A stretch of 64,000 bases of DNA from Polytrichum commune (taxonomy: Eukaryota > Streptophyta > Polytrichopsida > Polytrichales > Polytrichaceae), in NCBI GenBank assembly GCA_950295325.1, contig OX485809.1:12028001-12092000 (forward strand). The letters run 5' to 3'. Under the pieces are notes generated by a model. It had not been told where the DNA came from. It searched no databases and was given only the letters and a program-made list of their open reading frames with translations. A program made the translations under genes and the position numbers. Shown one piece after another: positions 2,119 through 51,881 of the stretch. Each line of letters begins with the position of its first letter. The first letter of the stretch is position 1.

Positions 2119-4498
2119 GTGCCAGCATCAGGTGGTTCTCCTTTGGTGGAGAGGGAGACTACAGAGTTTGATGCTTGGCCATTGGAATTGGGCCCTCATC
2201 TCACTGGTGCTGAGGCACGGAAAGTACGAGCATTTATTTTCTCGTACCGTAGGTGTTTTGCTTTTAGCCTTCAAGATCTTGAAGGTTATAAAGGAAAGCC
2301 CGTCCACATTCAGTTGGAGGACGACCATCCCATTTTTCGGAGACCTTATAGGCTCAGTGTTTCCGAGCGGAGCGGCGTTCAGGCTCGTTGCCAAGAGCTT
2401 TTGGCAGCAAGGCTAATCGAACTTTCCAACGGGGAGTATGCTTGTGCTATGGTTATGCCATCGAAAAATGATATCTTTGGCAATTGGACGGAAAAGCGGA
2501 TGTCGGGGATTACCGTCCAGTTAATCGGAAGACCAAGTCGGATCGATATCCCATGCCAATCCCGGAGGAGTTGTTCGATGCCCTCGGATTTGCTCGAGTC
2601 TTTAGCACGTTGGACTTGAGATCCGGCTATCACCAACTCCCATTACTTGTGGGAGACCGAGTGAAAACCGCATTCTGGGGAGTTGATCAAGATGGGAAGG
2701 ATCAACTTTACTATTGGAAGTTTCTTCCGTTTGGCCTGAAGAATGCACCTGCGGAGTTTCAGAGAGTGATGGACCAAGTTCTCTCTGGCTTACCCTTTGC
2801 TCGGTGTTACATTGATGACGTTATCATTTTCAGTATAACACCACAGGAGCATGTAAGGCATCTTCAAGCTGTTTTTGAGCGGTTGCAGCGGTGGGGATTG
2901 CGCTTGCACCACGGCAAGTGCAAGTTTTTCCATGACCGGCTGGCATATCTGGGGCATATGATTGTTCCAGGAGGTCTTGGGGTACAACAAGCTAAGGTGG
3001 ACACCTTGCAGAAGATTCCGGCACCGGTTGATGTGCCAAGACTTCGTGCTTTCTTGGGCTTGGCGAATTACTATCGGCGATTCATCAAGAACTTTAGCTT
3101 GATCGCCAAGCCTCTCACCATTCTCACGAGCAAGGACCAACCGTGAACTTGGGGTCGTGAGCAACAACAGGCGTTTGAGACATTGAAGCAGAAACTGGGT
3201 ACGGCTCTAGTGCTTCGACGTCCAGATGTCTCCAAATCTTTCCAGTTGCATACAGATTGGAGTTCATTGGGTTTGGGAGCAGTTCTCACTCAGAAGGATG
3301 ATTTTAGTCGGGAGTATGTTGTTGCTTACGCTTCGCGAAGAAATAACACGGCGGAGGCTAATTATTCATCCTACGAGGGAGAAGCATTGGCGGCGGTATG
3401 GGCTATTGCCCATTTTCGGCCGTATCTTTATGGTCAGCACATTACTTTAGTGACTGACCATCAACCGTTACGGTGGCTCATGGAGTCGGATAAGCTTACT
3501 GGCAAGCTTGCCAGGTGGGCTTTATTGCTCCAGGAGTATGACTTTGAGGTGGTACACCATGCTGGGATTACCAACATGGATGCAGATGGACTCTCACGCA
3601 ATCCAAGTCCTTCAGATGAGGACTTGACCGGGGCCAGATGGCATGGAAATTATGATCGAGAGGCGGTTCCAGGTTGGCACGCGGCTGCCTACCTTACTTT
3701 ATTTTCTGGTGCATCTGTTGAGATTCCGATACATGGTTCGGATGATGAGACTGATCGGCCTCAAGCTATTGTGGATATATGGGAGGATCTTCCCGTATTG
3801 CATAAGCTTCAACAGGGTACCTTTCATTTGTCTATTTCGGCAATGGAAAGGGATAGGATTGGACATCGAATAACAAGGTTCCGTTGGGAGAACGGTTTGT
3901 TATTTCGATTGTGGCCGGATGGGACAAGGCGTATTGTTCCTAGGCCGGATCAGAGGGCCTCCTTGGTGCGACAAGTGCACGAGGAACTTGGCCATTTTGG
4001 CATACGCAGGACACATTCGATGTTGCGTGGCCAATATTGGTGGACTGGCATGTATCAGCAGGTGGCTGCTTATGTCGGGAGGTGTGAAGTTTGTGACCGG
4101 GTCAGGTCTAGCTTTAACACCTTGTCACCTCAGTTACAGCCCTTACCTATCATGGGATTGGGCTACCGTTGGTCGCTAGACTTTGCGGGACCGTTGGTTG
4201 TCACACCACGTGGAGCAAAATACGTGTTGGTGATGGTGGAGCATTTTAGCAAGTGGATTGAGCTTGTTGCTTTACCCCAAAACTCTGCAGAGTTGGCCGC
4301 GGCCGCCTTTTTGGATCATGTGTTGGCACGTTTTGGAGCACCGGCTGAGGTGTTGACGGACCAAGGGAGGGAGTTCCTTGGTGTTTTTGAGGAGTTGTGC
4401 ACTAAGGCGCTCATAGATCACCGCACCACCTCTCGGGATCATCCGGAGGCAGATGGCTTGGCTGAACGGGTTGTTCAGACAACCAAGCGTGGCTTGAG
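2119..4498 (+). pseudogene. Pol: reverse transcriptase, RNase H and integrase (frameshifted, nonsense codon, cut by transposon)
   Basis: Reverse transcriptase begins near 2240 (a PYR-L block), and its catalytic YIDD is at 2808-2819. RNase H follows (HTDWSSLGLGAVLTQ, about 3247-3295). The integrase has the zinc-binding HHCC (first His 3978, Cys 4083 and 4092) and catalytic D (4179), D (4359) and E (4464). Two lesions are visible: the frame changes near 2503, consistent with one lost base just before a GDYRPVN block, and TGA at 3144-3146 stands where a Trp is expected, with the same frame continuing after it. There is only a TAG and 12 bases between the preceding ORF and this one. The last codons (RGLR) run into the inserted transposon; the frame resumes on the minus strand at 39122. 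Confidence 0.9.
4491..4498 (+). repeat. Target-site duplication half GGCTTGAG (transposon A, left)
   Basis: GGCTTGAG abuts the left end of transposon copy 1. Its partner is not at the right end of copy 1 but at 39123-39130 as CTCAAGCC, next to copy 2. A 9-bp reading (GGCTTGAGG) is possible because the element starts with G. Confidence 0.85.
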
Positions 4499-4645
4499 GG
4501 GGAGTGCTATCTTATGAGCGGTGAGCGATGAGCAGCGACCGATGAGCGGTGAGCGATGAGCGGCGAGCGATGAGCGGTGAGCGATGAGCGGCGAGCGATG
4601 AGCGGTGAGCGATGAGCGGTAACTTATGAGCAGTGAGGAAGATGA
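4499..4645 (+). repeat. Left terminal inverted repeat with GAGCGGTGAGCGATGAGC-type subterminal repeats
   Basis: GGGGAGTG-CTATCTTATGAGC is followed by many short GAGCGGTGAGC / GATGAGCGGCGAGC units up to about 4640. The matching terminus of copy 2 (51830-51873) has only two or three units, 84 bp fewer. Such tandem short motifs at transposon ends are plausible transposase-binding sites; that role is inferred. Confidence 0.85.
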
Positions 4646-5122
4646 AAATTTTGGTAATAGGGCCACCAATATCCTATAACCGTGGAATTGTGGCCTTAAA
4701 AATGATGATTTTAGGGTTTAGTAATAAGAGGGTTGAGAAGGATAAACAACATGAAGTCCAAAAATTTATTCATAAGTAGTAGCACTAGACATGAAACTAT
4801 CTTTTGCCTCGTCATCTATATATATTCGAGCACCTTTGCATTGCGAATTGATTTTGGAACTATAGCAAGATTCTTCATTTGGATCCGAATCTTCGAGATT
4901 CAACATTGCAATTGCAACATTCTCGGCATATGATGGGAGACGCGGGCTACGACTTGGACTTCGTAGGAATTGTCTATGTGCCCAAAACGGGAGACATGTC
5001 CTCTTTCCAATCGTATTCTTGAAATCAAATCGATGAAACATGTAAATAATGTGAAGAAATAAAAATGAACCAATGAATTGAATGAAACGAATGAATTGAA
5101 TAAAAATTTATTGTATCAAAAC
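4646..5122 (-). other. Segment between transposon end and methyltransferase-like stop; possible extra exon
   Basis: This holds a 91-codon minus-strand frame (4766-5041) with an acidic, serine-rich tail. A GTAAGT splice-donor-like site overlaps the stop codon of the upstream gene (about 5123-5128), so this could be an alternative last exon. I could not find a joining that is in frame throughout, so this is only a possibility. Confidence 0.3.
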
Positions 5123-8100
5123 TTACTCACACTCAAATTCAAGCATCTCCTCATCCGAGAGGTCATCATCTTCTTTTGTGAGATCTTGTATATTCTCCTC
5201 AGATGACCCCTCTTTCAAAACCTTTTCCAAAAGCGGTTTCAATATGTGCTCAAACATGTCATTATCACCCTCAAATGCAAGAAGATGTCTGCCACATGCG
5301 CGTGTTGCTAGGATAGAAGCTCCAGTGGAACATGTCAAATCAACAACGCGTCCATTCGATGGTGTAAACAATTCAATAAGATCTTGAAAAAAAACGTGGC
5401 GATTTTTGATATGGCCCCCTCCAAGGTCTTCCCGATTTTGGAAGAAGCGTGTTTTTTCATCCACAAAATTGAAAAGCAAGTTTTTGCTTTTCAATCCAGT
5501 GCCGAAAAAAGTGGAGTTTGGTTGTCTCGTGGATTTTTTGGTAGTAAAATCCCTTACCAAGACATGAGCCATAAATGCCGGAGTCTACAAAAAAATGTAA
5601 ATTGTGTTAAAACTATATACAATGCAAATAACACCAAAATAATTAAATAGAAACAATTGTGATGTGTTATACTTACGGTGTAGGTTGGAGACTCCGGATC
5701 CTTGAACACCATGTACGAATTGAGGCAAATAAAAGTCCTAAGAACTTTCATGTTGCCGTTGTGTAAGGTTGAATTCAAAACCTTCTTGGTTTGCATATCG
5801 ATAGCAGAAAATACTATGAGGACGCCATCATCAGACAAGATGGACTTGCACAAGGACATTGTTGCAACCATCCAGTTCTTGTCATATTTATTCCAAAGAG
5901 GAATTTCAGCAGGTCTATTGGAGAGGTTGAAGTCAAAACCGTCCGGAAATTGCAGAAAAACCAAGTCAACGGCAAATGGAGTCAGACTTCCCATGACATG
6001 AAATTCGCGATTGTCTTTGAACTGAAATACCACAACATATCACAATATAAGACACAAAATAAAATCCAAATGAAAGTAAGAACATTACAGAAAATACAAA
6101 ATGAAGATTACTTACATTTTCAAGAAATGCCCGCCATTGGATCCACTCAGGAGGGCCTACTTCAACCCCTTCAGACTTGTTCTTGACAGCAGTAGATCGA
6201 GCAAAAGAGAGCGTAAGAAAGTTCTTCAGTATGAATAATTTTTTTCTCAAAACATTCGTTGGCGCACGATGAATAGCGTCATAGGTGCTGGAGTAATGAA
6301 ATTCCAATACATCGCACCCGGATTTTGAACTTTCGCCTCCAAGTGTATTCTTATCCAAATCATTGGAAAGAACAAGCAATTCTTCATGTTGTGAAATTTC
6401 CGATTGACCTTGTATTTTGGTTTCAAGAACATGTTTTCTCTTACGACGTTTTGTCTCTTTTGGTTCTGGCTCTCTAAGTTTAAGCTGCACAATTTGTGCT
6501 TGCAAAATTGCAGTATCACGAGGATCTACATTTTTGGCATCATTTATCTGACGGATTGTCTTCTCACTTGACGGACATGCATCCTTAGGACAATCAAGAT
6601 ACCAACCACAATCCTCATAGTGTGGGAGCGACCAATCCAAACAAATCTCAGTAGTGAACATGCATGAGTCTTCCGCACCAGTGTCATGCCAATTTGGAAA
6701 AAAACGAGGTTCTCCTATAACGCATTTGTGCGGAATCAAAACATATCGGAAATACCTACACACAAAAATATTATGAGCCAAATATTGAATGAAAAGTAAA
6801 ATGTAATGAAAAAATATCAAGAAATAGTAAAGAATAAGTTGTACCTGTATAGAACACGCTTCATAGCAAGATCAATATTCGGTTGCTCATCCCAAACGTT
6901 GTGTTTTTTAACTTTTCCGCTTTTGAATTCACGATAGAATATTGAATTGAAAGCCGCAAACTTCCAGGTTTGGATATATTCGGAGAGAGTAGGCACATCT
7001 GCAGGCAATTGAAGAGGAGATGAAAGAATACTTTGAAGCTCTTCAAAAGCTTTTTTCTCTAACTGTGCCCAATATGTAGCCTTTGATAACCACTCATCAA
7101 GTGCAGAATCAGAGAGGGGTGATTTCGGGAAATGCAATGCATCTTTGTCAAATCTATTGCCAATCCAAAGCTTGAGCCATCCGACTTTGACATCTGGATC
7201 CACATTACTAACAGCAACACGATGAAGTTTCTCTTGTAACATTTCAGGCACCGAAAATGAACCCCAATGGTGCTAAACTTCTTCAAGAAAAGCAGGGGTG
7301 AGGTTGATGTCAGCAATTGCTAGTTGTTTTGTAAAACTAGAAGACAACATTGCACGTTTTTTATTGACAGCTGCGGACATTGCTTTAGAAACTCCTTCTG
7401 AAGTTCGTTCAAGAGGATGGGTTTCATTGTAAAGGTTGAGAGCAATATCGCTAGCCTCGGCAAGTTCTTGCTGAAAAATCAAACAAAATCCAAAATTAAT
7501 AAGTACATATAGATGTGATGTAAATGAAAGATAAATAAACATTAAAAACATAGTAGGAAATGCTAGAAAAACTTACACTGTACATATAATCAAGAAAAAT
7601 TGGCCGCGTCAAAGAATACCAACTTTCAACGGACTTCTCCTCACATCGCTTATAACTTCTAGGATCCAGTTGTTTTTTAAAAGAAGTCAAAGGCATGGTG
7701 CCAATACTTTGCATCCGATACAAAGTATGCACCAAATTGGTAGAAACGTGAGAGTTTTCTGTTGACCTGAAAAAATATTGAATTCATGGATTTAGGATGA
7801 TATAATTCAAACAACAAAATACAAACAAAAAATAAATGAAAATAAAGAAGTAAAAACATTACTTGTTGATGTCGTGCATAGCAGTCAACAAACTTGGAAT
7901 GTCATCAAGCTCGGGCGCCAAAATGATGGAATCCACAAAGACATGACGCTCGTAATCTTCGGTATGCAAGCGGTCAATATAACTTTTCCAAGCAAAAAAT
8001 CTGTGATTACCATCCCATATGAAGAACATCTTGTTCTTGTATGATGTAAATGAAGGATCGGCATCTAATTCAGTTTCAAACACCGCATTAGCTTGAGCCC

Positions 8101-9563
8101 AATTTGGGCTCCAAGATGCACGAACCTCGTCATCCACAAATTGAAAATTTCCCCTTAGAGTCGGTAGCCGATAGATAAAACACACGGTCACCATCACGAT
8201 AACTATTGAAAAAATCAGCCTCCAATTTAGTGATGTCGTGTCGTGCACCTCTCCATGAGGAGTGCCCGAAACACCATGGGCACAAGGGGGACCCCGGAGT
8301 GACACCCGGGACTTGTGGCGCCGTTGGTGAGAGGGCCCAAGTGATCCTAGTGTGGGTGAGGGCCCCGGGCGTTGGGAACGCCTCCCACCCACAAAGACTA
8401 GGAGGCATGAGGGTGAGGCCATGAGCTATGCGTAGCTCATGGCGTGGTGATTCTAGAATGCTCAAGATCACCTCAATCGGAGGTGTGAGCTAGGAGTTAT
8501 GGCCATTTGAGTGGGGTGCTGTCCCGGGACAGCGCCCTGGTACAGCAGTGCCTGGGAGTGATTCCCGGGACTGCCAAGGTTCAAACAGGCATAACTTCCT
8601 CAAGACTTGCCCGAATGGGGCAGGCAATGAGTCCATCGGCATCTACGTGAAGCGTAGATGAGGATGGAGTGGTTGGTTGTTATGATCAGACATCATACAA
8701 GGAAGTTATGATGGTCTGAAGCTGCTAGGGGGGTTCTAGGCCCAGCAGCTAAGGGAAAATGTCCACTTGGCCCCAACTCTTGGTAGAGAGACAAGAGGTT
8801 GGTTGGCGGTGGGGTAGGGGCTCCGTGTAGAGTCCTAGAGGCTTATATGGGTGAGGTGGTGTGGCCTCACCCACCCGAGGCCGAACGGCAAGGCCTCCAT
8901 GGGCATTGGCCCATTGTGAGGCCATAGTTGCCTAGTATGGTTCGGGTTGTTGTAGTGTTGCTCCGGCAACGCGATGATCAACATAGGATTGGACTTCCAT
9001 GGATGGAAGTCCACATTGGGGAAATGGGTTACCGATTAAGGGGTGAGTCCCGAAAGCAAAGTAGGAGGGTTGGTTCCCTCCTATGAACTATTGGTCCGGG
9101 GTAAGAGGAGCTATCCATTAGCATGGCGGAATGCGAAGGGTTAGCCACTCGTAACCTTTGCTAGAATTGAAAATTGGCAAGATGGTCAAGGGGGGGCTAG
9201 CAAGGGTTGCAACATGTCGCCTTTCAAAGCAGGACGCACAATAGGCATTGGAACCATGCGACATAAGGGTACACGCAAACGAGATTTCGGTCCAGCACGG
9301 ATTGAGGAAATTGTTGAAGTGGAATTAACCTTTCGCTTGTCTGTAAGCTCCCATACTTTCTGTTGATAGGTTTTATTGTCACCATCATTATCTTCATCCG
9401 AGTCAAAATCATCGAGAGATTCATTTATTTATTTATTTATTTTATTATGAAGATTTGACGATATGTCCTGATGAACATGAACTTGTTGAGAGGGACGATC
9501 TTGAGTTGAATGCATTGTAGAATCATCACTAGTAGAAATAACAGTCGTTCTCTCCAAATCCAT
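5123..9563 (-). pseudogene. ParB-like / N4-N6-type DNA-methyltransferase-like protein, copy 1 (broken)
   Basis: Seven coding segments read on the minus strand: 9563-9215, 8238-7863 (parted only by the solo LTR), 7766-7577, 7470-6845, 6755-6116, 6021-5677, 5584-5123. Introns are 70-110 bp with GT/AG ends and phase that fits, giving about 990 codons. The N-terminal half has WDGNHRFFAW followed by a VDSI...AMHDIN block, like ParB/sulfiredoxin-type domains (DGxHR). The C-terminal half looks like a permuted (beta-class) N4/N6 methyltransferase: a motif-IV-like VDLVFLQFPDG first, then motif I VVDLTCSTGA with a following acidic E. The DPPY/SPPY catalytic motif is not conserved, so activity is doubtful. 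Damage: an in-frame TAA in an AAAT microsatellite, the solo LTR, a frame change near 8150, and a TAG at 7273-7275. All are shared with copy 2. Domain assignments rest on motif reading only. Confidence 0.65.
8239..9214 (-). mobile_element. Solo LTR (976 bp) inside the methyltransferase-like gene, copy 1
   Basis: Read on the minus strand the segment starts TGTTGCAACC and ends GTGCACGACA, with CGACA repeated directly on both sides (9215-9219 and 8234-8238). TG...CA ends, a 5-bp duplication and no coding content are the marks of a solo LTR left by LTR-LTR recombination. It is clearly more GC-rich than its surroundings. It interrupts the N-terminal coding part of the gene; removing it with one CGACA restores the frame at that point. 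An identical insertion is in copy 2. Confidence 0.85.
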
Positions 9564-9785
9564 TGATTGGTCCCAAAAAAAATGAAATAAGTTTCATAAA
9601 TATTTCAAAACCAGTAGAAACACATTAGCAATAACATTACAAAAACAACAGCAATAGCAACAACAATAACAACAGAATACCACAAACACAGGGAAGAAAA
9701 ACAAAAATTATTCTAGACACTACCATTTGCACCTTTAAATATTGTACGATAAGGGTGGCCGCTCACCCCAAAACTACAAGGGCAG

Positions 9786-10065
9786 ACCCTGTGCGTTAAC
9801 GCACAGGGTCTGTGTGTCCAACTACAGGTCTACAAAAGTTGGGCGCGAGGTTTGGGTCGAACGACCCAAACTGTCCACGCGGTTTCGATCGAGCGACCCA
9901 AACCGCCTACAGCCAGTTTGGGTCGAACGACCCAAACCATGCTCACAGTTTGGGTCGAGCGACCCAAAATATACGGATAGTTTGGATCGACCGACCCAAA
10001 CTAGACGGACAGTTTGGGTCGAGCGTCCCAAACTAGGCCGACAGTTTGGGTCGACCGACCCAAAC
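9786..10065. repeat. Array of seven 22-bp palindromes (period about 32 bp) plus one 24-bp palindrome, copy 1
   Basis: At 9850, 9882, 9916, 9948, 9980, 10012 and 10044 there are units with 10-bp arms GTTTGGGTCG and CGACCCAAAC around a variable 2-base centre, separated by about 10 bp of variable sequence. At 9786-9809 is the second family (arm ACCCTGTGCG around TTAA). The array lies 220-500 bp upstream of the methyltransferase-like start codon. Function is unknown; multi-site protein binding or hairpin extrusion are guesses. Confidence 0.9.
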
Positions 10066-10299
10066 TGCCCGCAATTTACGCCTAATTATGCGCAATTACC
10101 CAGTCATCACGAAAGTACAAACAAACCTTGTACTGCACCTGTAGATGAGAGAGCTTGCAGCGACGAGCTCCGGTCCGATAGATGAGAGAAAAAAGACTGA
10201 ATGCTTTGAAGGTGTGGCAATTTATACTACTCGTCCCTGCGGCCATATTTAGCGTGGCTCTTCGTGCCCCGCATAGCCGCTAGAAAGTTGCCAGCGCAG

Positions 10300-10515
10300 A
10301 CCCTGTGCGATAACGCACAGGGTCTACTTGCCCAACTTTGTGAAGCCTCTAGCTAGGCAAATAGACCCTGTGCGATAACGCACAGGGTCTACTTGCCCAA
10401 CTTTGTGAAGCCTCTAGCTAGGCAAATAGACCCTGTGCGTTAACGCACAGGGTCTGCGCTGGCAACTTTGAGGCCACTGTGCGTTAGCGCATAAGGCCTG
10501 TGCGTTAATCGCACA
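10300..10515. repeat. CCCTGTGCG palindromes with 65-bp period, copy 1
   Basis: Three copies of the 24-bp palindrome (arm ACCCTGTGCG, centre TTAA or ATAA) start at 10300, 10365 and 10430, with a shared 41-bp spacer. A degraded copy follows to 10515. The outer edges (CCAGCGCAG... and ...CTGCGCTGG) also pair, making a nested inverted repeat. Confidence 0.88.
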
Positions 10516-10988
10516 GGGCCGAGACATGAATTTGCTAAAAACTTTTAAAATCTGGAATTGGTAGATTTGCCAAAACTTGTAAAATCTGGAAAAAATGCTA
10601 ATGGGATCAAAAAAAAATAAAAAAATGCTATATTATCTAAATCTCCGTAGCTACAAAATCTTCTGATATTTTGTTTTGGTTTGAAATCATTTTCTTTTCT
10701 CATTCTTCTATCTATTTCCTTGTTTTGGGCCACCTCGTAGATTTTGGGTTTCGGGGCAAAAAAAAAATTATGCTATTTTGTGTCATTTTCTAGCTCCTAT
10801 AATGTATTGCATGAATACTTGAGTAGACATATTTCTCATTTCTTGCATTCTAACCCCGTTTTGAATGGTTTTTTTGTTCCTACGCTCTGAAGATCGATTT
10901 AAATTCATACAATAGATATTTGTTTACTTTTAGGCTCTCCTAGTCGTTTTACCTCCCAACTTTTGGCCTTCCTAAGTTGCTCTTACAA

Positions 10989-11530
10989 ACCCTGTGCGTT
11001 AACGCACAGGGTTTCTCCTCCCAACTTTTTGCCTCCTAAGTTGTTCTTGCAAACCCTGTGCGTTAACGCACAGGGTTTCTCCTCCCAACTTTTTGCCTCC
11101 TAAGCTGCTCTTGCAAACCCTGTGCGTTAAAACACAGGGTTTCTCCTCCCAACTTTTTGCCTCCTAAGTTGCTCTTGCAAACCATGTGCGTTAACGCACA
11201 GGGTTTCTCCTCCCAACTTTTTGCCTCCTATGTTGCTCTTACAAACCATGTGCGTTAACGCACAGGGTTTCTCCTCCCAACTTTTTGCCTCCTAAGTTGC
11301 TCTTACAAACCCTGTGCGTTAACGCACATGGTTTTTCCTCCCAACTTTTTGCCTCCTAAGTTGCTCTTACAAACCCTGTGCGTCAACGCACAGGGTTTCT
11401 CCTCCCAACTTTTGGCCTTCCTAAGTTGCTATTACAAATCCTCTGCGTTAACGTACAGGGTTTTAGCTCCCAACTTTTGGCCTCCCTAAGTTGCTCTTAT
11501 AAACCTTGTGCGTTAACGTATAGGGTTTTA
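10989..11530. repeat. Tandem array of CCCTGTGCG palindromes with 64-bp period, copy 1
   Basis: Units start at 10989, 11053, 11117, 11181, 11245, 11309 and 11373, with degraded units near 11438 and 11502 and traces to about 11720. Each has a 24-bp palindrome and a conserved 40-bp spacer containing CTCCCAACTTTTTGCC. Sequence decay increases to the right. The period is exactly twice that of the 32-bp family. Confidence 0.9.
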
Positions 11531-11737
11531 CCTCTAAACTTCTCGCCTCCTAAGTTGCTTTTATAAACCCTGAACGTTCTCCTCCTGATTTCTAGCCTTC
11601 CTAAATTTCTGTTATATACCATGTGCATTAACGTATAGGTTTTTTCCTCTCCAATTTATAACCTCTATAAATTGCTACTACATTATATGTGAGTGAACGT
11701 ACAAGGTTCTCCGTCCTAACTTACAACTTATGCACTA

Positions 11738-12049
11738 TCAAATTATGTGAACGTTGAACCGATTTACCTTTTTGTTTGTCGTCTTCTTTGAACCCGTCTT
11801 CAATTCGGACTCTGATATACGATCATCTATATCTTCTTTGCTCTTTGCACCTTCATCATCCTCCATCGCATCAAAATCCAGTGTCTTCACAGTTTCTTCT
11901 ACCGTACTCAACAAGTTTCTTTTCCCTTCCTTATTTACATTCTTCTTTCCCACACTCAGTTTGAACCTCTTTTTCTCGGAAGTGAAATACAAAGCTTTCC
12001 TACGTCTTCTCTTCGGCCTCACGGGTGTTATTTCTACATCGTCCACCAT
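11738..12049 (-). CDS. Small charged protein, unrecognised (copy 1)
   Basis: This 103-codon minus-strand frame has a basic start (RPKRRRRKALYF) and an acidic middle (about residues 55-85), as in many nuclear proteins. A GT splice-donor-like sequence follows NKKVN codons (AAAAAG-GTAAAT), so it may be only a first exon. It starts about 520 bp from the transposase start and points the other way, so the two could share a promoter region. I recognise no family. It is identical in copy 2. The chance of a non-coding frame is real. Confidence 0.4.
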   Translation of the reverse strand: MVDDVEITPVRPKRRRRKALYFTSEKKRFKLSVGKKNVNKEGKRNLLSTVEETVKTLDFDAMEDDEGAKSKEDIDDRISESELKTGSKKTTNKKVNRFNVHII

Positions 12050-12571
12050 CGTTGGTGTCTATGATATGTTTTCTATCAGGTACTATCATTTATTCTTCCA
12101 ATGTATCTATCTCACAAAATCCGGCGTATATTACGATCACATGTTGTAATTGGCGTTCAATGAGCGAGATATTTCGACGCGTTTGTCATTATGTGTTTAT
12201 TTTTGTTATATCCGCCAAAATTTTCTGACACCTACTTTGTTCTATTCATAATGAGCAATAATTTATTTTTCCAACCAATTTTAATTCTTTCTACATCTAC
12301 GTCAGTCCACACATATATATTTTTGTTTTCTACCAATACTTTTAGTATTTGACGCCATTTTGTGTATATCTTGCTCGTAAATATTCTCTGACTATTATTG
12401 TGTTATGTCCACTTCTGTATTATTAGATGCTATGTATCACATGCTTTCATCTCCATCCATTATTGTATCACACGTTTTCATTTCCATTCATTTCCTCACA
12501 CAACTCTATACAAAACCAACATTCACCCCATATTTTTGTGATGTGTTGTTCATATGTTTTTTTGATTTTCT
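12050..12571. promoter_or_regulatory. Divergent intergenic region between small ORF and transposase, copy 1
   Basis: This AT-rich 522-bp stretch lies between two divergent reading frames and is the likely promoter region by position. I see no clear TATA box or repeat that fixes a start site. Confidence 0.35.
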
Positions 12572-18710: not shown

Positions 18711-18712
18711 CC

Positions 18713-39562: not shown

Positions 39563-39627
39563 GTTGAATTAAGGCCCAGAATCTACAAATGAAAGGAAAT
39601 TAGATATTAGAAATAGTCAATATGTAG

Positions 39628-39798
39628 GTAACTACTAGGTTTTGAGACATCCGCCTGTGGATGCGAGTTGTGTAAGAGACTGGTATTAGGTCTGTATCAA
39701 CCCGGGTTCGAATCCGGTTGGTTACATTGACTGGTGCTATCCCAAATTGAGCTAGTGATAAAGTACGAATAATCTATAGGCGGATACCAAGAAGACGT
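39628..39798 (+). repeat. tRNA-like / SINE-like segment, copy 2
   Basis: The B box GGTTCGAATCC is at 39705-39715. Equivalent to 16690-16860. Confidence 0.4.
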
Positions 39799-40017
39799 TA
39801 CTACGCGGATGTACGTAGAATCTTCTCAATTATTTTTTATTTTTAGAAACTTGTTATTATTTATCCATGTCAATCAATCAAACCGCTCACGGTTGGATCG
39901 TACTGAATCATTTGAAATACTTCCAGCCCATTGCTGATTTTTATTATAAAAATCCAAACCAAAACATGTCATATTTTGACATTCAAATATATGGTACTTA
40001 ATAGACCATTTGCAATA

Positions 40018-43000
40018 CTACTCATACTCTACGATACCAGCAAGTTCAAGTAGTCGCATGACCTCGTTATAGGTATATGTAGGTGCATGAATGAACTTGT
40101 CACTCTCGTAATCCACCTTGCACAAAAATCTAAACACATAATAAAGATGTTTACAATACACCCATTTTCCTTTCTTTCCCAATGCATGAGAGGACATTTT
40201 CGTGAAATCCGGGCATGTGCAATGCGGGATGTCGCCAATTGTGACATGGTAGGTGATATCCTGCTTGGAGACAATGTTGATTATCACTCCAAAGCCCGGA
40301 TATGGAATGGCAGTGACCCCAACCACATAGTAACCCTCCATGAGTCCGGCGCTCTCCCATTTGTTTTTGTGATCCGCTAGCGGTGCTGTTGGATTACGAC
40401 GCACTGTCTTCCCAAACCTGAATGTAGGGTGGGCGTCCGGGTTTGGTGGCATAGAAAAATGCGAGCGAAGGATGGGAAGAGTTGCGATTGTTGAAAGCCT
40501 ACGACGAGGGGACAATGCCTCCCTCTGCTGTAGTTGAAATCCAGCATCTTCAAGTGCCAAAACCTCCTCTCGCGATAGATTGGTACCTATCTTCACCGGC
40601 CACGTGTTGGGTACTATAGGCCAGTCCAACACATATTTCTTCTTACTGCCACTCACACAACGTTTGATGTCGTCAGGGCAAAACCAAAATTCATACTCCA
40701 CATTATTGGGAGAGCGAAATTCCTTCCTGAGCCCTTTGTATGTTGGAGCAGGTGTGTCATGTTTCCCAGTCCCGACTTTGGCATTGCACATAGTCCCTGT
40801 GATGGCCTGCAGTGCCCAACATCGTTTGGCTGAGTTGGGTGGTAATCTTGCAATGTGCCAGTTGGAAGCAAGACAATCAGTCTCTAACACGGATGTAGTA
40901 TGAGCCACACCATGAATTGCAGAACTTAACGATTCCTCTATGCGTTGACGAGTTGCTCGGGTGTTCGGACGGGGAATGGAATAGTTCACTTTGTCGGGTC
41001 GATGAGAGTCACAATCAGCACCCGGTGGTAGGTTGAGTTTGCGTTTGGTGGAACCAAAGAGCTCTGACCCTTCCAATGCACAATCTCTAGTGTTGACGTC
41101 TTCTGCCCCTGGATAAGACTTCATGGCATCGGCCAACATTTTTGGATCTCCACACCTTGCAGCCGCTTTGAGTTTCAAGGATGCCGAATCAGGACCTTTA
41201 CCATCAGACCCCCCTTTCAACCATGTCCGGTAATTTGCAATTTGCATGAAAGCACGGATCATGTCGTCCACTGTAGCTTCATATAAACAAGTCATCTTGT
41301 TGTCGGACTGTTGGAGCCATTTGTTGTGTACAGTCTCTGCAAGGTTGCATATTGGCATTTCCGCACGCTCTTGTATTGTCATATCCTATGAGCAACACAC
41401 AAATACAAGGATAAGACAAACATAAGATAGATTATATGTTTAGGTTTGGGTCGTTCAACCCAAACTGCCTACAAGGTTTGGGTCGAACGACCCAAAATGG
41501 CCGCCACGTTTGGGTCGAACGACCCAAACTGCCTGCCACGTTTGGGTCGTTCGACCCAAACTGCATACAAGGTTTGGGTCGAACGACCCAAACTATTTGT
41601 TGTTTGTTGTGTACAGTCTCTGCAAGGTTGCATGTTGGCATTCCCGTACGCTCTTCTATTGTCATATCCTATGAACAATACAGAAAGACAAAGATAAGAA
41701 AAACATAAGATATATTACATTGAGTAATGAAGTTTGATATGTATTTACAAGTAGCATATGGCCACCCCATTGTCTGTAACGAAAGTGCCAAAATCCCAAC
41801 CACTCTGAAAGGCCAAGGATGCCTTCCTCGGAGGCAGCTCCAGATGACAACCACCAAGAACGAATCACATGGTACTTGGTCTCAGCGTCGTCCATTGTTT
41901 TCGCGTCTTTGTAATCCTTGCATATTTGTTTGTGTTGAAATTGCAAGGATGGTTTGATATACTTTTGGGTCACCTTATCCAAGCTTGCGGACCAATGGAA
42001 AAGACATGTACGCTCACGTGCAACCATGGGTAGACTTGGATCACCATCCCCGTAAATCGCCCTCACCGCATTCCAATTAGCTTGAGCACTATCAGCCATA
42101 AACCCTTTGAAGTTTACGTATGGTACACCATTTTCTGCCATGACAGCATTCAAATTTCCCCAAAAGAGAATTTGTGCTGCACCATCTTCAGATTGCATGT
42201 CACAACACGCAATAGTCAACACTTTACAATATCGACTGTCGTACACATGGCAAGCCATGGTCGTCCAGTCCTTCAAACGTTTGACATGGTCAAATATAAT
42301 CCATGAATTCTCCATATCCCCACCGACTTGCATCCTCTTCACAAGCTCCACACCACTACCTGGAAGGTCTACAGACATCTTGAAAACAAACACTTTGTCC
42401 TTTGACTGCCCTGGGAACCGACTACCATGGACGAATTTGAAAGCAGAGTGGTCTTTGAGCGCCATAATACTATCCATAGTTCCCATTCCACTACGCAAAA
42501 AACGCTTTGATCCAGATACAAAGTTACGACAATTTGGAGACGCAAGAGTGTTGAATTTGTCCATGACGACCTCTAGGGATGAACCAACCAAGTGATGGCC
42601 TTCGACATTTGTGGGAGATTTGAGAAGGTAATCGGCCAAGAATTGTTTGCTCGCCGCCATAACTATGGCTGAATTTTTTGCTGTGGGTGTTTTCAATACT
42701 TCATTTGCAACGCATTGGTATGCCATGTCCAATGATTCACGGCATGTGTCATTGGCCACAAGGTGATCATGTACACCAAGATGAATGCAAGCCCTAGACA
42801 TTCCAACGGATGTGGAGTGGATGTATATGATTCGAGCATTACACAAAGCAATGCACACAGGTGTGGACCGACATACCTTACACTCGACAGTGGACTTAGT
42901 AGGGGGAACAACACCCACAGCAAATGGGATAGGAGTTGAACCGGCCCATTCAGTGTTGTTCCGGAGGCCCCCATTGCGATTCATGTAATCACAGTAGTCA

Positions 43001-43884
43001 TTATGACATTGGAGATGACCAGCACAAGTAGAGCGCCGGAAGGACAGTCCAAAGTCATTTTGGATATTCGTGGTTTTGGTGGTGCACCAAGGATGACCGT
43101 CGCACATCTTGTCCATGCCGTCCATTGAGCGACCATACGTACTTGGAGCTTTGAGTGCCACAGGAGGCAAAAGAAACAAAACATCACCATTAAAAGAAGA
43201 TGGTAAATACTTGACTTCACGAACATCTATACTGTCAAAATCAATGGATGCAAGATCGGACTTTGATCTTTTTCTTGACTTTGTCAGCTTCAAGGCATCA
43301 ACCATAGTCAACCCTGTATATGAAGGTGAAGGGTGTAGTGGAGGACGTTGAGAAGGTGAGATTTGGGGAACCACCTTCTTGTACATAAGACCGCAAGGGG
43401 ATTTGGCTACATGTATAGGAAGTTGGGAAGGAGTAGAATGAACACTTCTAAATGGAAATGGCGATGTGTTTGAAAGATCAACAGATGCACAAATGTCATC
43501 TTCTGAATCTGATAGCACAAACACACTATCATCAAGGGGTTCCACCTTAACAGGTGCGATAGAGGGAATTTGAACTGTGGATGTACCGGATTCGTTTGTC
43601 AAAATGACAGTTGAAGCTTGCATCTGAGACTCAGAAAGTCCTATCACCCTAAATGAACCAGGTCCTAAGATCCACATAAAACCAACATCAGTTCTATTTT
43701 TTAGAACCAAAATCGTTTCATACACCTCTCCATCTGCAGAGTACATCTCATGCTCTAAATACATGGTTCCTATCTGGAGGTTGAATCTCAAACTAAGTAA
43801 ATCCTCTGAAACACTCACATGACCATCATCTTGGAGTGGCAAGATGAAGGGAACAAAAGATCCATGAGCTCTAATGGTAGCCAT
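40018..43884 (-). CDS. Mutator-like transposase with SWIM zinc finger, copy 2
   Basis: Exons 43884-41749 and 41385-40018 on the minus strand match copy 1 in full. One residue differs (Ala in copy 1, Thr here, in the block SP-A/T-NVEGHH; base 42612). The SWIM Cys/His residues and the candidate DDE residues are all kept and no stop interrupts the frame, so both copies could supply transposase. The intron has five palindromes instead of six. The duplicated exon start and its alternative acceptor are also present. Confidence 0.78.
41444..41593. repeat. Array of five 22-bp palindromes, 32-bp period, copy 2
   Basis: Same family and place as 14863-15044, one unit shorter. Reading in element direction, the fifth unit is directly followed by the CTAAACATATAATC flank. 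Confidence 0.95.
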
Positions 43885-44406
43885 AGAAAATCAAAAAAAC
43901 ATATGAACAACACATCACAAAAATATGGGGTGAATGTTGGTTTTGTATAGAGTTGTGTGAGGAAATGAATGGAAATGAAAACGTGTGATACAATAATGGA
44001 TGGAGATGAAAGCATGTGATACATAGCATCTAATAATACAGAAGTGGACATAACACAATAATAGTCAGAGAATATTTACGAGCAAGATATACACAAAATG
44101 GCGTCAAATACTAAAAGTATTGGTAGAAAACAAAAATATATATGTGTGGACTGACGTAGATGTAGAAAGAATTAAAATTGGTTGGAAAAATAAATTATTG
44201 CTCATTATGAATAGAACAAAGTAGGTGTCAGAAAATTTTGGCGGATATAACAAAAATAAACACATAATGACAAACGCGTCGAAATATCTCGCTCATTGAA
44301 CGCCAATTACAACATGTGATCGTAATATACGCCGGATTTTGTGAGATAGATACATTGGAAGAATAAATGATAGTACCTGATAGAAAACATATCATAGACA
44401 CCAACG
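43885..44406. promoter_or_regulatory. Divergent intergenic region, copy 2
   Basis: Equivalent to 12050-12571; likely promoter region by position only. Confidence 0.35.
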
Positions 44407-44718
44407 ATGGTGGACGATGTAGAAATAACACCCGTGAGGCCGAAGAGAAGACGTAGGAAAGCTTTGTATTTCACTTCCGAGAAAAAGAGGTTCAAACTGA
44501 GTGTGGGAAAGAAGAATGTAAATAAGGAAGGGAAAAGAAACTTGTTGAGTACGGTAGAAGAAACTGTGAAGACACTGGATTTTGATGCGATGGAGGATGA
44601 TGAAGGTGCAAAGAGCAAAGAAGATATAGATGATCGTATATCAGAGTCCGAATTGAAGACGGGTTCAAAGAAGACGACAAACAAAAAGGTAAATCGGTTC
44701 AACGTTCACATAATTTGA
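44407..44718 (+). CDS. Small charged protein, unrecognised (copy 2)
   Basis: Identical 103-codon frame to 11738-12049: a basic start, an acidic middle, and a GT donor-like site near its end. It is transcribed away from the transposase gene, towards the 64-bp palindrome array. Confidence 0.4.
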   Translation: MVDDVEITPVRPKRRRRKALYFTSEKKRFKLSVGKKNVNKEGKRNLLSTVEETVKTLDFDAMEDDEGAKSKEDIDDRISESELKTGSKKTTNKKVNRFNVHII

Positions 44719-44925
44719 TAGTGCATAAGTTGTAAGTTAGGACGGAGAACCTTGTACGTTCACTCACATATAATGTAGTAGCAATTTATAGAGGTTATAA
44801 ATTGGAGAGGAAAAAACCTATACGTTAATGCACATGGTATATAACAGAAATTTAGGAAGGCTAGAAATCAGGAGGAGAACGTTCAGGGTTTATAAAAGCA
44901 ACTTAGGAGGCGAGAAGTTTAGAGG

Positions 44926-45467
44926 TAAAACCCTATACGTTAACGCACAAGGTTTATAAGAGCAACTTAGGGAGGCCAAAAGTTGGGAGCTAAAACCCTG
45001 TACGTTAACGCAGAGGATTTGTAATAGCAACTTAGGAAGGCCAAAAGTTGGGAGGAGAAACCCTGTGCGTTGACGCACAGGGTTTGTAAGAGCAACTTAG
45101 GAGGCAAAAAGTTGGGAGGAAAAACCATGTGCGTTAACGCACAGGGTTTGTAAGAGCAACTTAGGAGGCAAAAAGTTGGGAGGAGAAACCCTGTGCGTTA
45201 ACGCACATGGTTTGTAAGAGCAACATAGGAGGCAAAAAGTTGGGAGGAGAAACCCTGTGCGTTAACGCACATGGTTTGCAAGAGCAACTTAGGAGGCAAA
45301 AAGTTGGGAGGAGAAACCCTGTGTTTTAACGCACAGGGTTTGCAAGAGCAGCTTAGGAGGCAAAAAGTTGGGAGGAGAAACCCTGTGCGTTAACGCACAG
45401 GGTTTGCAAGAACAACTTAGGAGGCAAAAAGTTGGGAGGAGAAACCCTGTGCGTTAACGCACAGGGT
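44926..45467. repeat. 64-bp palindrome array, copy 2
   Basis: Mirror of 10989-11530, with the same point changes in the same units. Confidence 0.9.
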
Positions 45468-45940
45468 TTGTAAGAGCAACTTAGGAAGGCCAAAAGTTGG
45501 GAGGTAAAACGACTAGGAGAGCCTAAAAGTAAACAAATATCTATTGTATGAATTTAAATCGATCTTCAGAGCGTAGGAACAAAAAAACCATTCAAAACGG
45601 GGTTAGAATGCAAGAAATGAGAAATATGTCTACTCAAGTATTCATGCAATACATTATAGGAGCTAGAAAATGACACAAAATAGCATAATTTTTTTTTTGC
45701 CCCGAAACCCAAAATCTACGAGGTGGCCCAAAACAAGGAAATAGATAGAAGAATGAGAAAAGAAAATGATTTCAAACCAAAACAAAATATCAGAAGATTT
45801 TGTAGCTACGGAGATTTAGATAATATAGCATTTTTTTATTTTTTTTTGATCCCATTAGCATTTTTTCCAGATTTTACAAGTTTTGGCAAATCTACCAATT
45901 CCAGATTTTAAAAGTTTTTAGCAAATTCATGTCTCGGCCC

Positions 45941-46156
45941 TGTGCGATTAACGCACAGGCCTTATGCGCTAACGCACAGTGGCCTCAAAGTTGCCAGCGC
46001 AGACCCTGTGCGTTAACGCACAGGGTCTATTTGCCTAGCTAGAGGCTTCACAAAGTTGGGCAAGTAGACCCTGTGCGTTATCGCACAGGGTCTATTTGCC
46101 TAGCTAGAGGCTTCACAAAGTTGGGCAAGTAGACCCTGTGCGTTATCGCACAGGGT
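45941..46156. repeat. 65-bp palindrome group, copy 2
   Basis: Mirror of 10300-10515. Confidence 0.88.
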
Positions 46157-46390
46157 CTGCGCTGGCAACTTTCTAGCGGCTATGCGGGGCACGAAGAGCC
46201 ACGCTAAATATGGCCGCAGGGACGAGTAGTATAAATTGCCACACCTTCAAAGCATTCAGTCTTTTTTCTCTCATCTATCGGACCGGAGCTCGTCGCTGCA
46301 AGCTCTCTCATCTACAGGTGCAGTACAAGGTTTGTTTGTACTTTCGTGATGACTGGGTAATTGCGCATAATTAGGCGTAAATTGCGGGCA

Positions 46391-46670
46391 GTTTGGGTCG
46401 GTCGACCCAAACTGTCGGCCTAGTTTGGGACGCTCGACCCAAACTGTCCGTCTAGTTTGGGTCGGTCGATCCAAACTATCCGTATATTTTGGGTCGCTCG
46501 ACCCAAACTGTGAGCATGGTTTGGGTCGTTCGACCCAAACTGGCTGTAGGCGGTTTGGGTCGCTCGATCGAAACCGCGTGGACAGTTTGGGTCGTTCGAC
46601 CCAAACCTCGCGCCCAACTTTTGTAGACCTGTAGTTGGACACACAGACCCTGTGCGTTAACGCACAGGGT
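46391..46670. repeat. 32-bp palindrome array and single 24-bp palindrome, copy 2
   Basis: Mirror of 9786-10065: seven GTTTGGGTCG-type palindromes and one ACCCTGTGCG-type palindrome at 46647-46670. Confidence 0.9.
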
Positions 46671-46892
46671 CTGCCCTTGTAGTTTTGGGGTGAGCGGCCA
46701 CCCTTATCGTACAATATTTAAAGGTGCAAATGGTAGTGTCTAGAATAATTTTTGTTTTTCTTCCCTGTGTTTGTGGTATTCTGTTGTTATTGTTGTTGCT
46801 ATTGCTGTTGTTTTTGTAATGTTATTGCTAATGTGTTTCTACTGGTTTTGAAATATTTATGAAACTTATTTCATTTTTTTTGGGACCAATCA

Positions 46893-49800
46893 ATGGATTT
46901 GGAGAGAACGACTGTTATTTCTACTAGTGATGATTCTACAATGCATTCAACTCAAGATCGTCCCTCTCAACAAGTTCATGTTCATCAGGACATATCGTCA
47001 AATCTTCATAATAAAATAAATAAATAAATAAATGAATCTCTCGATGATTTTGACTCGGATGAAGATAATGATGGTGACAATAAAACCTATCAACAGAAAG
47101 TATGGGAGCTTACAGACAAGCGAAAGGTTAATTCCACTTCAACAATTTCCTCAATCCGTGCTGGACCGAAATCTCGTTTGCGTGTACCCTTATGTCGCAT
47201 GGTTCCAATGCCTATTGTGCGTCCTGCTTTGAAAGGCGACATGTTGCAACCCTTGCTAGCCCCCCCTTGACCATCTTGCCAATTTTCAATTCTAGCAAAG
47301 GTTACGAGTGGCTAACCCTTCGCATTCCGCCATGCTAATGGATAGCTCCTCTTACCCCGGACCAATAGTTCATAGGAGGGAACCAACCCTCCTACTTTGC
47401 TTTCGGGACTCACCCCTTAATCGGTAACCCATTTCCCCAATGTGGACTTCCATCCATGGAAGTCCAATCCTATGTTGATCATCGCGTTGCCGGAGCAACA
47501 CTACAACAACCCGAACCATACTAGGCAACTATGGCCTCACAATGGGCCAATGCCCATGGAGGCCTTGCCGTTCGGCCTCGGGTGGGTGAGGCCACACCAC
47601 CTCACCCATATAAGCCTCTAGGACTCTACACGGAGCCCCTACCCCACCGCCAACCAACCTCTTGTCTCTCTACCAAGAGTTGGGGCCAAGTGGACATTTT
47701 CCCTTAGCTGCTGGGCCTAGAACCCCCCTAGCAGCTTCAGACCATCATAACTTCCTTGTATGATGTCTGATCATAACAACCAACCACTCCATCCTCATCT
47801 ACGCTTCACGTAGATGCCGATGGACTCATTGCCTGCCCCATTCGGGCAAGTCTTGAGGAAGTTATGCCTGTTTGAACCTTGGCAGTCCCGGGAATCACTC
47901 CCAGGCACTGCTGTACCAGGGCGCTGTCCCGGGACAGCACCCCACTCAAATGGCCATAACTCCTAGCTCACACCTCCGATTGAGGTGATCTTGAGCATTC
48001 TAGAATCACCACGCCATGAGCTACGCATAGCTCATGGCCTCACCCTCATGCCTCCTAGTCTTTGTGGGTGGGAGGCGTTCCCAACGCCCGGGGCCCTCAC
48101 CCACACTAGGATCACTTGGGCCCTCTCACCAACGGCGCCACAAGTCCCGGGTGTCACTCCGGGGTCCCCCTTGTGCCCATGGTGTTTCGGGCACTCCTCA
48201 TGGAGAGGTGCACGACACGACATCACTAAATTGGAGGCTGATTTTTTCAATAGTTATCGTGATGGTGACCGTGTGTTTTATCTATCGGCTACCGACTCTA
48301 AGGGGAAATTTTCAATTTGTGGATGACGAGGTTCGTGCATCTTGGAGCCCAAATTGGGCTCAAGCTAATGCGGTGTTTGAAACTGAATTAGATGCCGATC
48401 CTTCATTTACATCATACAAGAACAAGATGTTCTTCATATGGGATGGTAATCACAGATTTTTTGCTTGGAAAAGTTATATTGACCGCTTGCATACCGAAGA
48501 TTACGAGCGTCATGTCTTTGTGGATTCCATCATTTTGGCGCCCGAGCTTGATGACATTCCAAGTTTGTTGACTGCTATGCACGACATCAACAAGTAATGT
48601 TTTTACTTCTTTATTTTCATTTATTTTTTGTTTGTATTTTGTTGTTTGAATTATATCATCCTAAATCCATGAATTCAATATTTTTTCAGGTCAACAGAAA
48701 ACTCTCACGTTTCTACCAATTTGGTGCATACTTTGTATCGGATGCAAAGTATTGGCACCATGCCTTTGACTTCTTTTAAAAAACAACTGGATCCTAGAAG
48801 TTATAAGCGATGTGAGGAGAAGTCCGTTGAAAGTTGGTATTCTTTGACGCGGCCAATTTTTCTTGATTATATGTACAGTGTAAGTTTTTCTAGCATTTCC
48901 TACTATGTTTTTAATGTTTATTTATCTTTCATTTACATCACATCTATATGTACTTATTAATTTTGGATTTTGTTTGATTTTTCAGCAAGAACTTGCCGAG
49001 GCTAGCGATATTGCTCTCAACCTTTACAATGAAACCCATCCTCTTGAACGAACTTCAGAAGGAGTTTCTAAAGCAATGTCCGCAGCTGTCAATAAAAAAC
49101 GTGCAATGTTGTCTTCTAGTTTTACAAAACAACTAGCAATTGCTGACATCAACCTCACCCCTGCTTTTCTTGAAGAAGTTTAGCACCATTGGGGTTCATT
49201 TTCGGTGCCTGAAATGTTACAAGAGAAACTTCATCGTGTTGCTGTTAGTAATGTGGATCCAGATGTCAAAGTCGGATGGCTCAAGCTTTGGATTGGCAAT
49301 AGATTTGACAAAGATGCATTGCATTTCCCGAAATCACCCCTCTCTGATTCTGCACTTGATGAGTGGTTATCAAAGGCTACATATTGGGCACAGTTAGAGA
49401 AAAAAGCTTTTGAAGAGCTTCAAAGTATTCTTTCATCTCCTCTTCAATTGCCTGCAGATGTGCCTACTCTCTCCGAATATATCCAAACCTGGAAGTTTGC
49501 GGCTTTCAATTCAATATTCTATCGTGAATTCAAAAGCGGAAAAGTTAAAAAACACAACGTTTGGGATGAGCAACCGAATATTGATCTTGCTATGAAGCGT
49601 GTTCTATACAGGTACAACTTATTCTTTACTATTTCTTGATATTTTTTCATTACATTTTACTTTTCATTCAATATTTGGCTCATAATATTTTTGTGTGTAG
49701 GTATTTCCGATATGTTTTGATTCCGCACAAATGCGTTATAGGAGAACCTCGTTTTTTTCCAAATTGGCATGACACTGGTGCGGAAGACTCATGCATGTTC

Positions 49801-51333
49801 ACTACTGAGATTTGTTTGGATTGGTCGCTCCCACACTATGAGGATTGTGGTTGGTATCTTGATTGTCCTAAGGATGCATGTCCGTCAAGTGAGAAGACAA
49901 TCCGTCAGATAAATGATGCCAAAAATGTAGATCCTCGTGATACTGCAATTTTGCAAGCACAAATTGTGCAGCTTAAACTTAGAGAGCCAGAACCAAAAGA
50001 GACAAAACGTCGTAAGAGAAAACATGTTCTTGAAACCAAAATACAAGGTCAATCGGAAATTTCACAACATGAAGAATTGCTTGTTCTTTCCAATGATTTG
50101 GATAAGAATACACTTGGAGGCGAAAGTTCAAAATCCGGGTGCGATGTATTGGAATTTCATTACTCCAGCACCTATGACGCTATTCATCGTGCGCCAACGA
50201 ATGTTTTGAGAAAAAAATTATTCATACTGAAGAACTTTCTTACGCTCTCTTTTGCTCGATCTACTGCTGTCAAGAACAAGTCTGAAGGGGTTGAAGTAGG
50301 CCCTCCTGAGTGGATCCAATGGCGGGCATTTCTTGAAAATGTAAGTAATCTTCATTTTGTATTTTCTGTAATGTTCTTACTTTCATTTGGATTTTATTTT
50401 GTGTCTTATATTGTGATATGTTGTGGTATTTCAGTTCAAAGACAATCGCGAATTTCATGTCATGGGAAGTCTGACTCCATTTGCCGTTGACTTGGTTTTT
50501 CTGCAATTTCCGGACGGTTTTGACTTCAACCTCTCCAATAGACCTGCTGAAATTCCTCTTTGGAATAAATATGACAAGAACTGGATGGTTGCAACAATGT
50601 CCTTGTGCAAGTCCATCTTGTCTGATGATGGCGTCCTCATAGTATTTTCTGCTATCGATATGCAAACCAAGAAGGTTTTGAATTCAACCTTACACAACGG
50701 CAACATGAAAGTTCTTAGGACTTTTATTTGCCTCAATTCGTACATGGTGTTCAAGGATCCGGAGTCTCCAACCTACACCGTAAGTATAACACATCACAAT
50801 TGTTTCTATTTAATTATTTTGGTGTTATTTGCATTGTATATAGTTTTAACACAATTTACATTTTTTTGTAGACTCCGGCATTTATGGCTCATGTCTTGGT
50901 AAGGGATTTTACTACCAAAAAATCCACGAGACAACCAAACTCCACTTTTTTCGGCACTGGATTGAAAAGCAAAAACTTGCTTTTCAATTTTGTGGATGAA
51001 AAAACACGCTTCTTCCAAAATCGGGAAGACCTTGGAGGGGGCCATATCAAAAATCGCCACGTTTTTTTTCAAGATCTTATTGAATTGTTTACACCATCGA
51101 ATGGACGCGTTGTTGATTTGACATGTTCCACTGGAGCTTCTATCCTAGCAACACGCGCATGTGGCAGACATCTTCTTGCATTTGAGGGTGATAATGACAT
51201 GTTTGAGCACATATTGAAACCGCTTTTGGAAAAGGTTTTGAAAGAGGGGTCATCTGAGGAGAATATACAAGATCTCACAAAAGAAGATGATGACCTCTCG
51301 GATGAGGAGATGCTTGAATTTGAGTGTGAGTAA
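46893..51333 (+). pseudogene. ParB-like / N4-N6-type DNA-methyltransferase-like protein, copy 2 (broken)
   Basis: Coding segments: 46893-47241, 48218-48593, 48690-48879, 48986-49611, 49701-50340, 50435-50779 and 50872-51333. Donors are mostly GTAAGT-like and acceptors TTTCAG, TGTAG or similar; phases agree at every junction. The start codon has a good context (CAATCAATGG). The damage is the same as in copy 1: TAA at 47025-47027 in an AAAT run, the solo LTR at 47242, a frame change near 48305, and TAG at 49181-49183. Every lesion was therefore present before the copies arose, or was spread by conversion. The ParB-like DGNHR motif and the degenerate methyltransferase motifs are as described for copy 1. 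A lysine/arginine-rich stretch (KRRKRKH) in the middle could be a nuclear localisation signal. Confidence 0.65.
47242..48217 (+). mobile_element. Solo LTR inside the methyltransferase-like gene, copy 2
   Basis: TGTTGCAACC...GTGCACGACA, 976 bp, flanked by CGACA at 47237-47241 and 48218-48222. Same insertion as 8239-9214. Confidence 0.85.
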
Positions 51334-51829
51334 GTTTTGATACAATAAATTTTTATTCAATTCATTCGTTTCATTCAATTCATTGGTTCATTTTTATTTC
51401 TTCACATTATTTACATGTTTCATCGATTTGATTTCAAGAATACGATTGGAAAGAGGACATGTCTCCCGTTTTGGGCACATAGACAATTCCTACGAAGTCC
51501 AAGTCGTAGCCCGCGTCTCCCATCATATGCCGAGAATGTTGCAATTGCAATGTTGAATCTCGAAGATTCGGATCCAAATGAAGAATCTTGCTATAGTTCC
51601 AAAATCAATTCGCAATGCAAAGGTGCTCGAATATATATAGATGACGAGGCAAAAGATAGTTTCATGTCTAGTGCTACTACTTATGAATAAATTTTTGGAC
51701 TTCATGTTGTTTATCCTTCTCAACCCTCTTATTACTAAACCCTAAAATCATCATTTTTAAGGCCACAATTCCACGGTTATAGGATATTGGTGGCCCTATT
51801 ACCAAAATTTTCATCTTCCTCACTGCTCA

Positions 51830-51873
51830 TAAGTTACCGCTCATCGCTCACCGCTCATAAGATAGCACTCCCC
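51830..51873 (-). repeat. Terminal inverted repeat of copy 2 (methyltransferase side)
   Basis: Short version of the 4499-4645 repeat: only ACCGCTCATCGCTCACCGCTC, then ATAAGATAGCACTCCCC. Confidence 0.85.
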
Positions 51874-51881
51874 CTTTGCAT
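51874..51881 (-). repeat. Target-site duplication half CTTTGCAT (transposon B)
   Basis: Reverse complement of ATGCAAAG at 17358-17365. Confidence 0.82.

Follow-up and report, generated by a model that had tools for sequence, protein, structure and literature searches.

Exchanged target duplications around two inverted transposon copies point to a recent 21.8-kb inversion in Polytrichum commune

A 12.8-kb transposon present twice in opposite orientation

The window analysed here is a stretch of 64,000 nucleotides of Polytrichum commune (positions 12028001-12092000 of contig C7). It contains no N and belongs to a genome assembly of 408 Mb in 64 contigs, of which C1-C7 are of chromosome size (42-78 Mb). 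When the window was compared with itself, a 12.8-kb unit was found to be present twice in opposite orientation. One copy abuts the left part of a Ty3 element and the other abuts the right part, and each also adjoins one part of a decayed LINE-like element. The features of the locus, by position in the window and strand, are as follows.

2484..4498, +: Ty3 pol, left-hand part, with RT, RNase H, H2C2 and integrase core by Pfam, cut by copy 1
4489..4498, +: target duplication 1, GTGGCTTGAG, at the Ty3 site, left of copy 1
4499..17355, +: copy 1, a transposon of 12.86 kb, with start GGGGAGTGCTATC and end CTTCCCTC, the same as in the other family ends fetched
12572..14794, +: transposase-like ORF of 740 aa, first coding part (21 homologous proteins)
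15106..16470, +: transposase-like ORF of 454 aa with a SWIM-like CxC...CxH at its C-terminus (alignment and Pfam SWIM)
17356..17365, +: target duplication 2, GTATGCAAAG, at the LINE site, right of copy 1; its first two bases, GT, are unlike those of its partner
17366..17872, -: upstream part of the decayed LINE-like element (comparison with relatives)
17366..39122, no strand: the segment apparently inverted, 21.76 kb from one duplication to the other (exchanged flanks; relatives with empty sites)
38370..39122, -: right-hand remainder of this Ty3, with the integrase end and a PHD finger, at present next to copy 2 (Pfam PHD; flank abutment)
39123..39132, -: partner of target duplication 1, reading GTGGCTTGAG on the minus strand, adjoining copy 2 at its right end
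39133..51873, -: copy 2, 12.74 kb, inverted, with 3 substitutions and array differences relative to copy 1
51874..51883, -: partner of target duplication 2, reading TGATGCAAAG on the minus strand, adjoining copy 2 at its left end
51884..51986, +: remainder of this LINE-like element, its downstream part (comparison with relatives)

The unit begins with GGGGAGTGCTATCTTATGAGCGG and ends with GCTTCCCTC, limits that we set by comparison with the ends of other copies, and its termini consist of short inverted repeats, imperfect ones, with TGAGCGG-type heptamers next to them. Over about 12.7 kb, copy 1 is separated from copy 2 by 3 substitutions (at 13844, 15143 and 16986), all of them transitions; the lengths differ by a single 32-bp unit in a palindrome array and by 84 bases in the left array of 7-bp repeats (the heptamer array). 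A BLAST comparison gave 24 mismatches in the right 2.5 kb; these are mostly register slips in the palindrome array, and the true substitutions there are two (15143 and 16986). When set against six other copies (L003-L008), two of the three substitutions are seen in copy 2 alone and the third in copy 1 alone. Across the left 4.5 kb the two copies are identical at all 4501 sites, whereas the four further copies aligned with them are 10-15% different from both, and in the right part the six other copies differ by about 0.8-2%. Because their only substitutions are three private ones, and because they are identical over 4501 sites at which others are 10-15% different, copies 1 and 2 are sisters that split very recently. 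The three private substitutions include no informative site, and since the copies thus carry no informative older differences, chimerism is undemonstrable in this pair.

We note that palindrome-bearing tandem arrays of 32- and 64-bp units lie at 9850-10067, 10952-11572 and 14862-15046, one of them between the two transposase ORFs, and that the number of GTTTGGGTC palindromes ranges from 2 to 12 across eight copies, including the two in the window. A direct repeat of 115 bp (14739-14853 and 15054-15168) stands on both sides of the array between the ORFs. Between the two transposon copies, the segment 17366-39122 contains an inverted repeat of its own, of about 540 bp and 87% identity (23246-23786 and 33067-33602).

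The two transposase-like ORFs look like two exons of one gene. The 740-aa ORF has 21 homologous proteins, with a precomputed Pfam domain in 0 of the 21 listed, and the 454-aa ORF has 276, with a precomputed Pfam domain in none among the 120 listed. In its motifs the 740-aa ORF appears to resemble MULE transposases. A PDB sequence search with its alignment gave one weak, unrelated match (E 0.11), and the predicted structure of the ORF has low confidence (mean pLDDT 56.7). In the alignment of the 454-aa ORF the CxC...CKH pattern is largely conserved; the match to SWIM is weak, being found in 6 of 22 members at E up to 1 (best 0.032), and the protein encoded in the window scores 13.0 bits against a curated cut-off of 19.6. 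The element resembles MULEs in its 10-bp target duplications, its short terminal inverted repeats and the SWIM-like zinc site in its second ORF, but it is unlike them in that the MULE transposase domain has no Pfam match in any of the 22 members of the 740-aa ORF alignment at E up to 10, and in that SWIM falls under the curated cut-off. Target duplications of 9-11 bp are ascribed to MULEs in one account of such elements (PMC4334395). On the basis of the 10-bp duplications and the SWIM-like C-terminus we refer to the element as Mutator-like in behaviour, and we withhold its assignment as a MULE.

The minus strand of the transposon carries an apparent intron-containing gene (5126-8425, -), which in copy 1 contains a stop codon in frame as well as a shift of reading frame. 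Its last exon contains what we take to be an AdoMet-binding motif, and its first exon presumably has a DGNHR motif; the gene gave no Pfam match above cut-off and no relative at E 0.001.

Target duplications and the two interrupted elements

Neither copy in the window has matched flanks of its own. The match is instead crosswise, the two GTGGCTTGAG sequences agreeing at 10/10 positions and GTATGCAAAG agreeing with TGATGCAAAG at 8/10; for a single named pair, 10/10 plus 8/10 or better would arise by chance with a probability of about 4e-10. The GT that disagrees with the partner, next to the right end of copy 1, is identical to the first two bases of the right flank of the Ty3 site. As a control for the window copies, ends were fetched from other copies in 38 left and 38 right regions, with a recognisable end in 37 and 35 of them, respectively (L122 on the left, and L103, L109 and L112 on the right, were left out for want of one). 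Among the 20 other copies with both ends fetched, 18 have a matched 10-bp duplication, 17 of them at 10/10 by script, with the register free by one G, and one (L070) by eye, with an extra G. When the 39 left and 37 right ends, window copies included, were compared with each other, the sole cross-copy match above 8/10 was the 10/10 pair of the window. At least two further cross-copy pairs reach 8/10 (among the top two listed for each left end), which is close to chance, with about one expected. A preliminary description of this DNA had proposed two inverted copies with swapped flanks, and the coordinates, the orientation and the crosswise 8-bp matches are all as it described them. Its duplication length of 8 bp gives way to the 10 bp that the family duplicates; flipping 17366-39122 does reunite both pairs, as it had proposed, but the restored duplications are of 10 bp, at 10/10 and 8/10.

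Unmatched flanks were also seen in 2 of the 20 other copies (L055/L075 and L071/L091), and these may mark further rearrangements. A pattern search for a partner of the L071 left flank gave one site with one mismatch, on C2, with no element end there.

At the Ty3 site, flank A (the 601 bases that end at copy 1, with the duplication among them) and flank B (the 601 bases past the duplication of copy 2) were searched separately, and the best 40 of 422 and 40 of 435 candidates, respectively, were scored. The genome has at least 39 further close copies of the integrase flank. Among the 39 and 39 best listed matches besides the window, flanks A and B abut in 25 other Ty3 copies, on the same strand and with 0 bases between them, and there are no near-miss pairs; the remaining matches are without a partner among the matches listed. 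Contrary to the preliminary description, the flip does not join the integrase in frame, for at the join the open frame on one side is displaced by one base from that on the other. In 32 of the 39 listed relatives the right flank matches with 602 bases to the 601-base query, one base different in length.

The ORF directly upstream of the split Ty3 RT (region 91-4498, +) has a match to C-5 cytosine methylase (PF00145), and we have taken both this ORF and the PHD finger as putative parts of the Ty3 element. Methylase-bearing gypsy elements appear in a report on the charophyte Klebsormidium (PMC5890265), and a literature search for gypsy elements with PHD and methyltransferase gave nothing relevant.

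The second target gave no Pfam match, and we call it a LINE on the strength of LINE-like motifs. Its flanks are almost single-copy in a DNA search, with 3 and 1 matches besides the window. The translated halves, searched separately, lie in order and in tandem in 4 of the 4 relatives from the DNA search. In two of these relatives the gap between the halves is exactly as one copy of the target predicts (18 and 57 bases, in L051 and L052), and in the other two it is off the prediction (283 bases vs 36 in L050, 73 vs 111 in L054). A fifth, more distant relative, which lies in the window itself near 28.4 kb, has the halves in order with a gap of 51 bases vs 57. Joining the halves restores a single open frame, as the preliminary description had it, over about 104 codons; outside this frame the LINE is decayed.

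The locus combines copies in inverted orientation, exchanged duplications, empty sites of both targets in paralogs and sister status of the copies. The abutment of the Ty3 flanks and the order and spacing of the LINE halves in their relatives indicate that each target was one continuous element before insertion and that 17366-39122 is inverted relative to that order, and undoing the inversion is strongly supported by these sequence comparisons.

Explanations for the exchanged flanks

An inversion of this kind could be produced by the assembly itself, if the real order is uninverted and the assembler exchanged the flanks of two near-identical 12.8-kb repeats, and the repeats are indeed 12.7-12.9 kb long and just 3 substitutions apart. 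However, differences between the copies are spread over the left 7-bp array (within 4514-4620), position 13844, the array at 14.9-15.0 kb, and positions 15143 and 16986, and the longest stretch identical between them is about 9.2 kb, which is in the range of common long reads. Since the stretch with no difference between the copies is at most about 9.2 kb (4620-13844), reads of less than 13 kb can still connect the flanks, and the read length of more than 13 kb that had been called for is unnecessary, about 9.2 kb of linkage being enough. As the assembly also has 64 contigs for 408 Mb, with no N in the window, we regard an assembly error as improbable, and we infer that the order of the window is correct.

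The explanation that we tentatively prefer is a local daughter transposition followed by a crossover between the sister copies, which flipped the 21.8-kb segment. A 12.8-kb transposon with terminal inverted repeats, resident in the Ty3 element, would have sent a daughter copy in inverted orientation into the decayed LINE 21.8 kb off. Homologous exchange between the sister copies would then have flipped the intervening segment and, in doing so, swapped which half of each 10-bp duplication adjoins which copy. We infer in this case that the exchange was a crossover and that the copy at the Ty3 site was the donor. Long, near-identical and close inverted repeats are good substrates for crossover. 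We place crossover after local transposition slightly ahead, as a weak choice, because plain transposition is the commoner process and long twin repeats recombine readily. The single crossover between inverted copies put forward in the preliminary description stands as regards the inversion, given the swapped duplications and the paralogous empty sites, but as regards the crossover it meets the difficulty that hybrid element insertion leaves the same pattern. Against crossover, the 8/10 agreement of the second duplication has no explanation from a crossover within the element. A habit of leaving local daughters also finds no support in L132 and L133, which lie 25 kb apart on C3 in the same orientation, are 3.8% different and are no sister pair. 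A closer inverted pair on C4 (5.01-5.03 Mb; ORF2 at 5012678 on the plus strand and 5021691 on the minus strand) is without a swap at the checkable copy, the minus copy having its own matched duplication (L056/L076) and the right end of the plus copy being unrecognised (L103).

Hybrid element insertion, of which the P-element and Ac/Ds provide examples, is a serious though less favoured alternative, in which the inversion, two identical copies and swapped duplications arise in one step. After replication, a right end and a left end on opposite sister chromatids would act as one transposon and insert into the LINE 21.8 kb away, and GT would be two bases of donor flank brought along by the cut end. 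The duplication is perfect at both of the ends where this model involves no cut (4489-4498 and 39123-39132), and the sole blemish sits at a newly joined end, where it matches the two bases with which the donor's right flank starts. Identical copies are, moreover, the stated contrast with ectopic recombination in the discussion of Galileo (PMC2775673), and a similar route is proposed for an inversion associated with VANDAL, a Mutator-like element, in Arabidopsis (PMC12312487). On the other hand, GT would match by chance 1 time in 16, and a plain move from donor to daughter also carries GT. Aberrant transposition is usually rarer than plain transposition. Near-identical copies are predicted by hybrid element insertion and also by a crossover between a donor and a daughter newly inserted nearby, while GT suggests that the right end at the LINE site came from the Ty3 site carrying two flank bases, which likewise fits both routes. 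That the locus is the fossil of a hybrid element insertion, made in a single step by a Mutator-like transposon, with the copies as sisters of the Ty3-site element and GT marking the end that was cut and moved, is in this full form a rather unlikely account. Breakpoints that coincide exactly with element ends, and a scar of two bases at one junction, would also be allowed if transposase had cut both facing (right) ends and the loose 21.8-kb segment had been end-joined in reverse, but the other junction is perfect at 10/10, end joining at two ends usually loses bases, and the sister status of the copies is left unexplained, so that we consider this very improbable. Two inverted copies around a segment also look like a composite unit; transposition of the whole 47-kb unit was rejected because the outer flanks are unlike each other, there is no new duplication, and two targets account for all four flanks. 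Reversed-ends transposition was rejected as well, since a new duplication at the junctions is expected from the maize work (PMC8225341) and the flanks here belong to two old targets, and to this pair of possibilities we attach practically no weight.

Comparison with known inversions

The class of mechanism is already known, from Galileo in Drosophila and from VANDAL and Ac in plants. The present locus is like Galileo inversion 2z3 of Drosophila buzzatii, as that case is set out in PMC2775673, in having inverted transposon copies at both breakpoints and exchanged target duplications. It is also like it in the single copy of the target, found there in uninverted chromosomes and here in paralogs only, and in the matched duplications at other copies, of which two were compared there. 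The copies of 2z3 are chimeric, which its authors took as proof of recombination, and the discriminator given in the same source is that copies are chimeric after ectopic recombination and identical after hybrid element insertion (PMC2775673). Unlike in 2z3, the copies here are near-identical, so that recombination and hybrid insertion are inseparable, and the targets are dispersed repeats, the empty sites being paralogs at other loci. The hybrid element insertion model, as presented there, likewise combines identical copies, swapped duplications and an inversion, in one step (PMC2775673). In the inversion of the chromosome 4 knob of Arabidopsis, a plant Mutator-like element is again found at the inversion breakpoints; that element, VANDAL, belongs to another family, and alternative transposition is the route proposed for it in that report (PMC12312487). 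Inversions associated with maize Ac are described in PMC8225341, and a deletion associated with a citrus MULE, with dissimilar duplications, in PMC4334395.

Since the window includes both breakpoints of what appears to be a very young inversion made by a transposon, the uninverted order and the target sites can be read directly. The locus also marks a limit of the usual argument, in that swapped duplications alone are no proof of crossover when the copies are twins. If hybrid element insertion is the true route, the locus would reveal where the transposase cuts the flank strand, and the inversion would be explained without a crossover.
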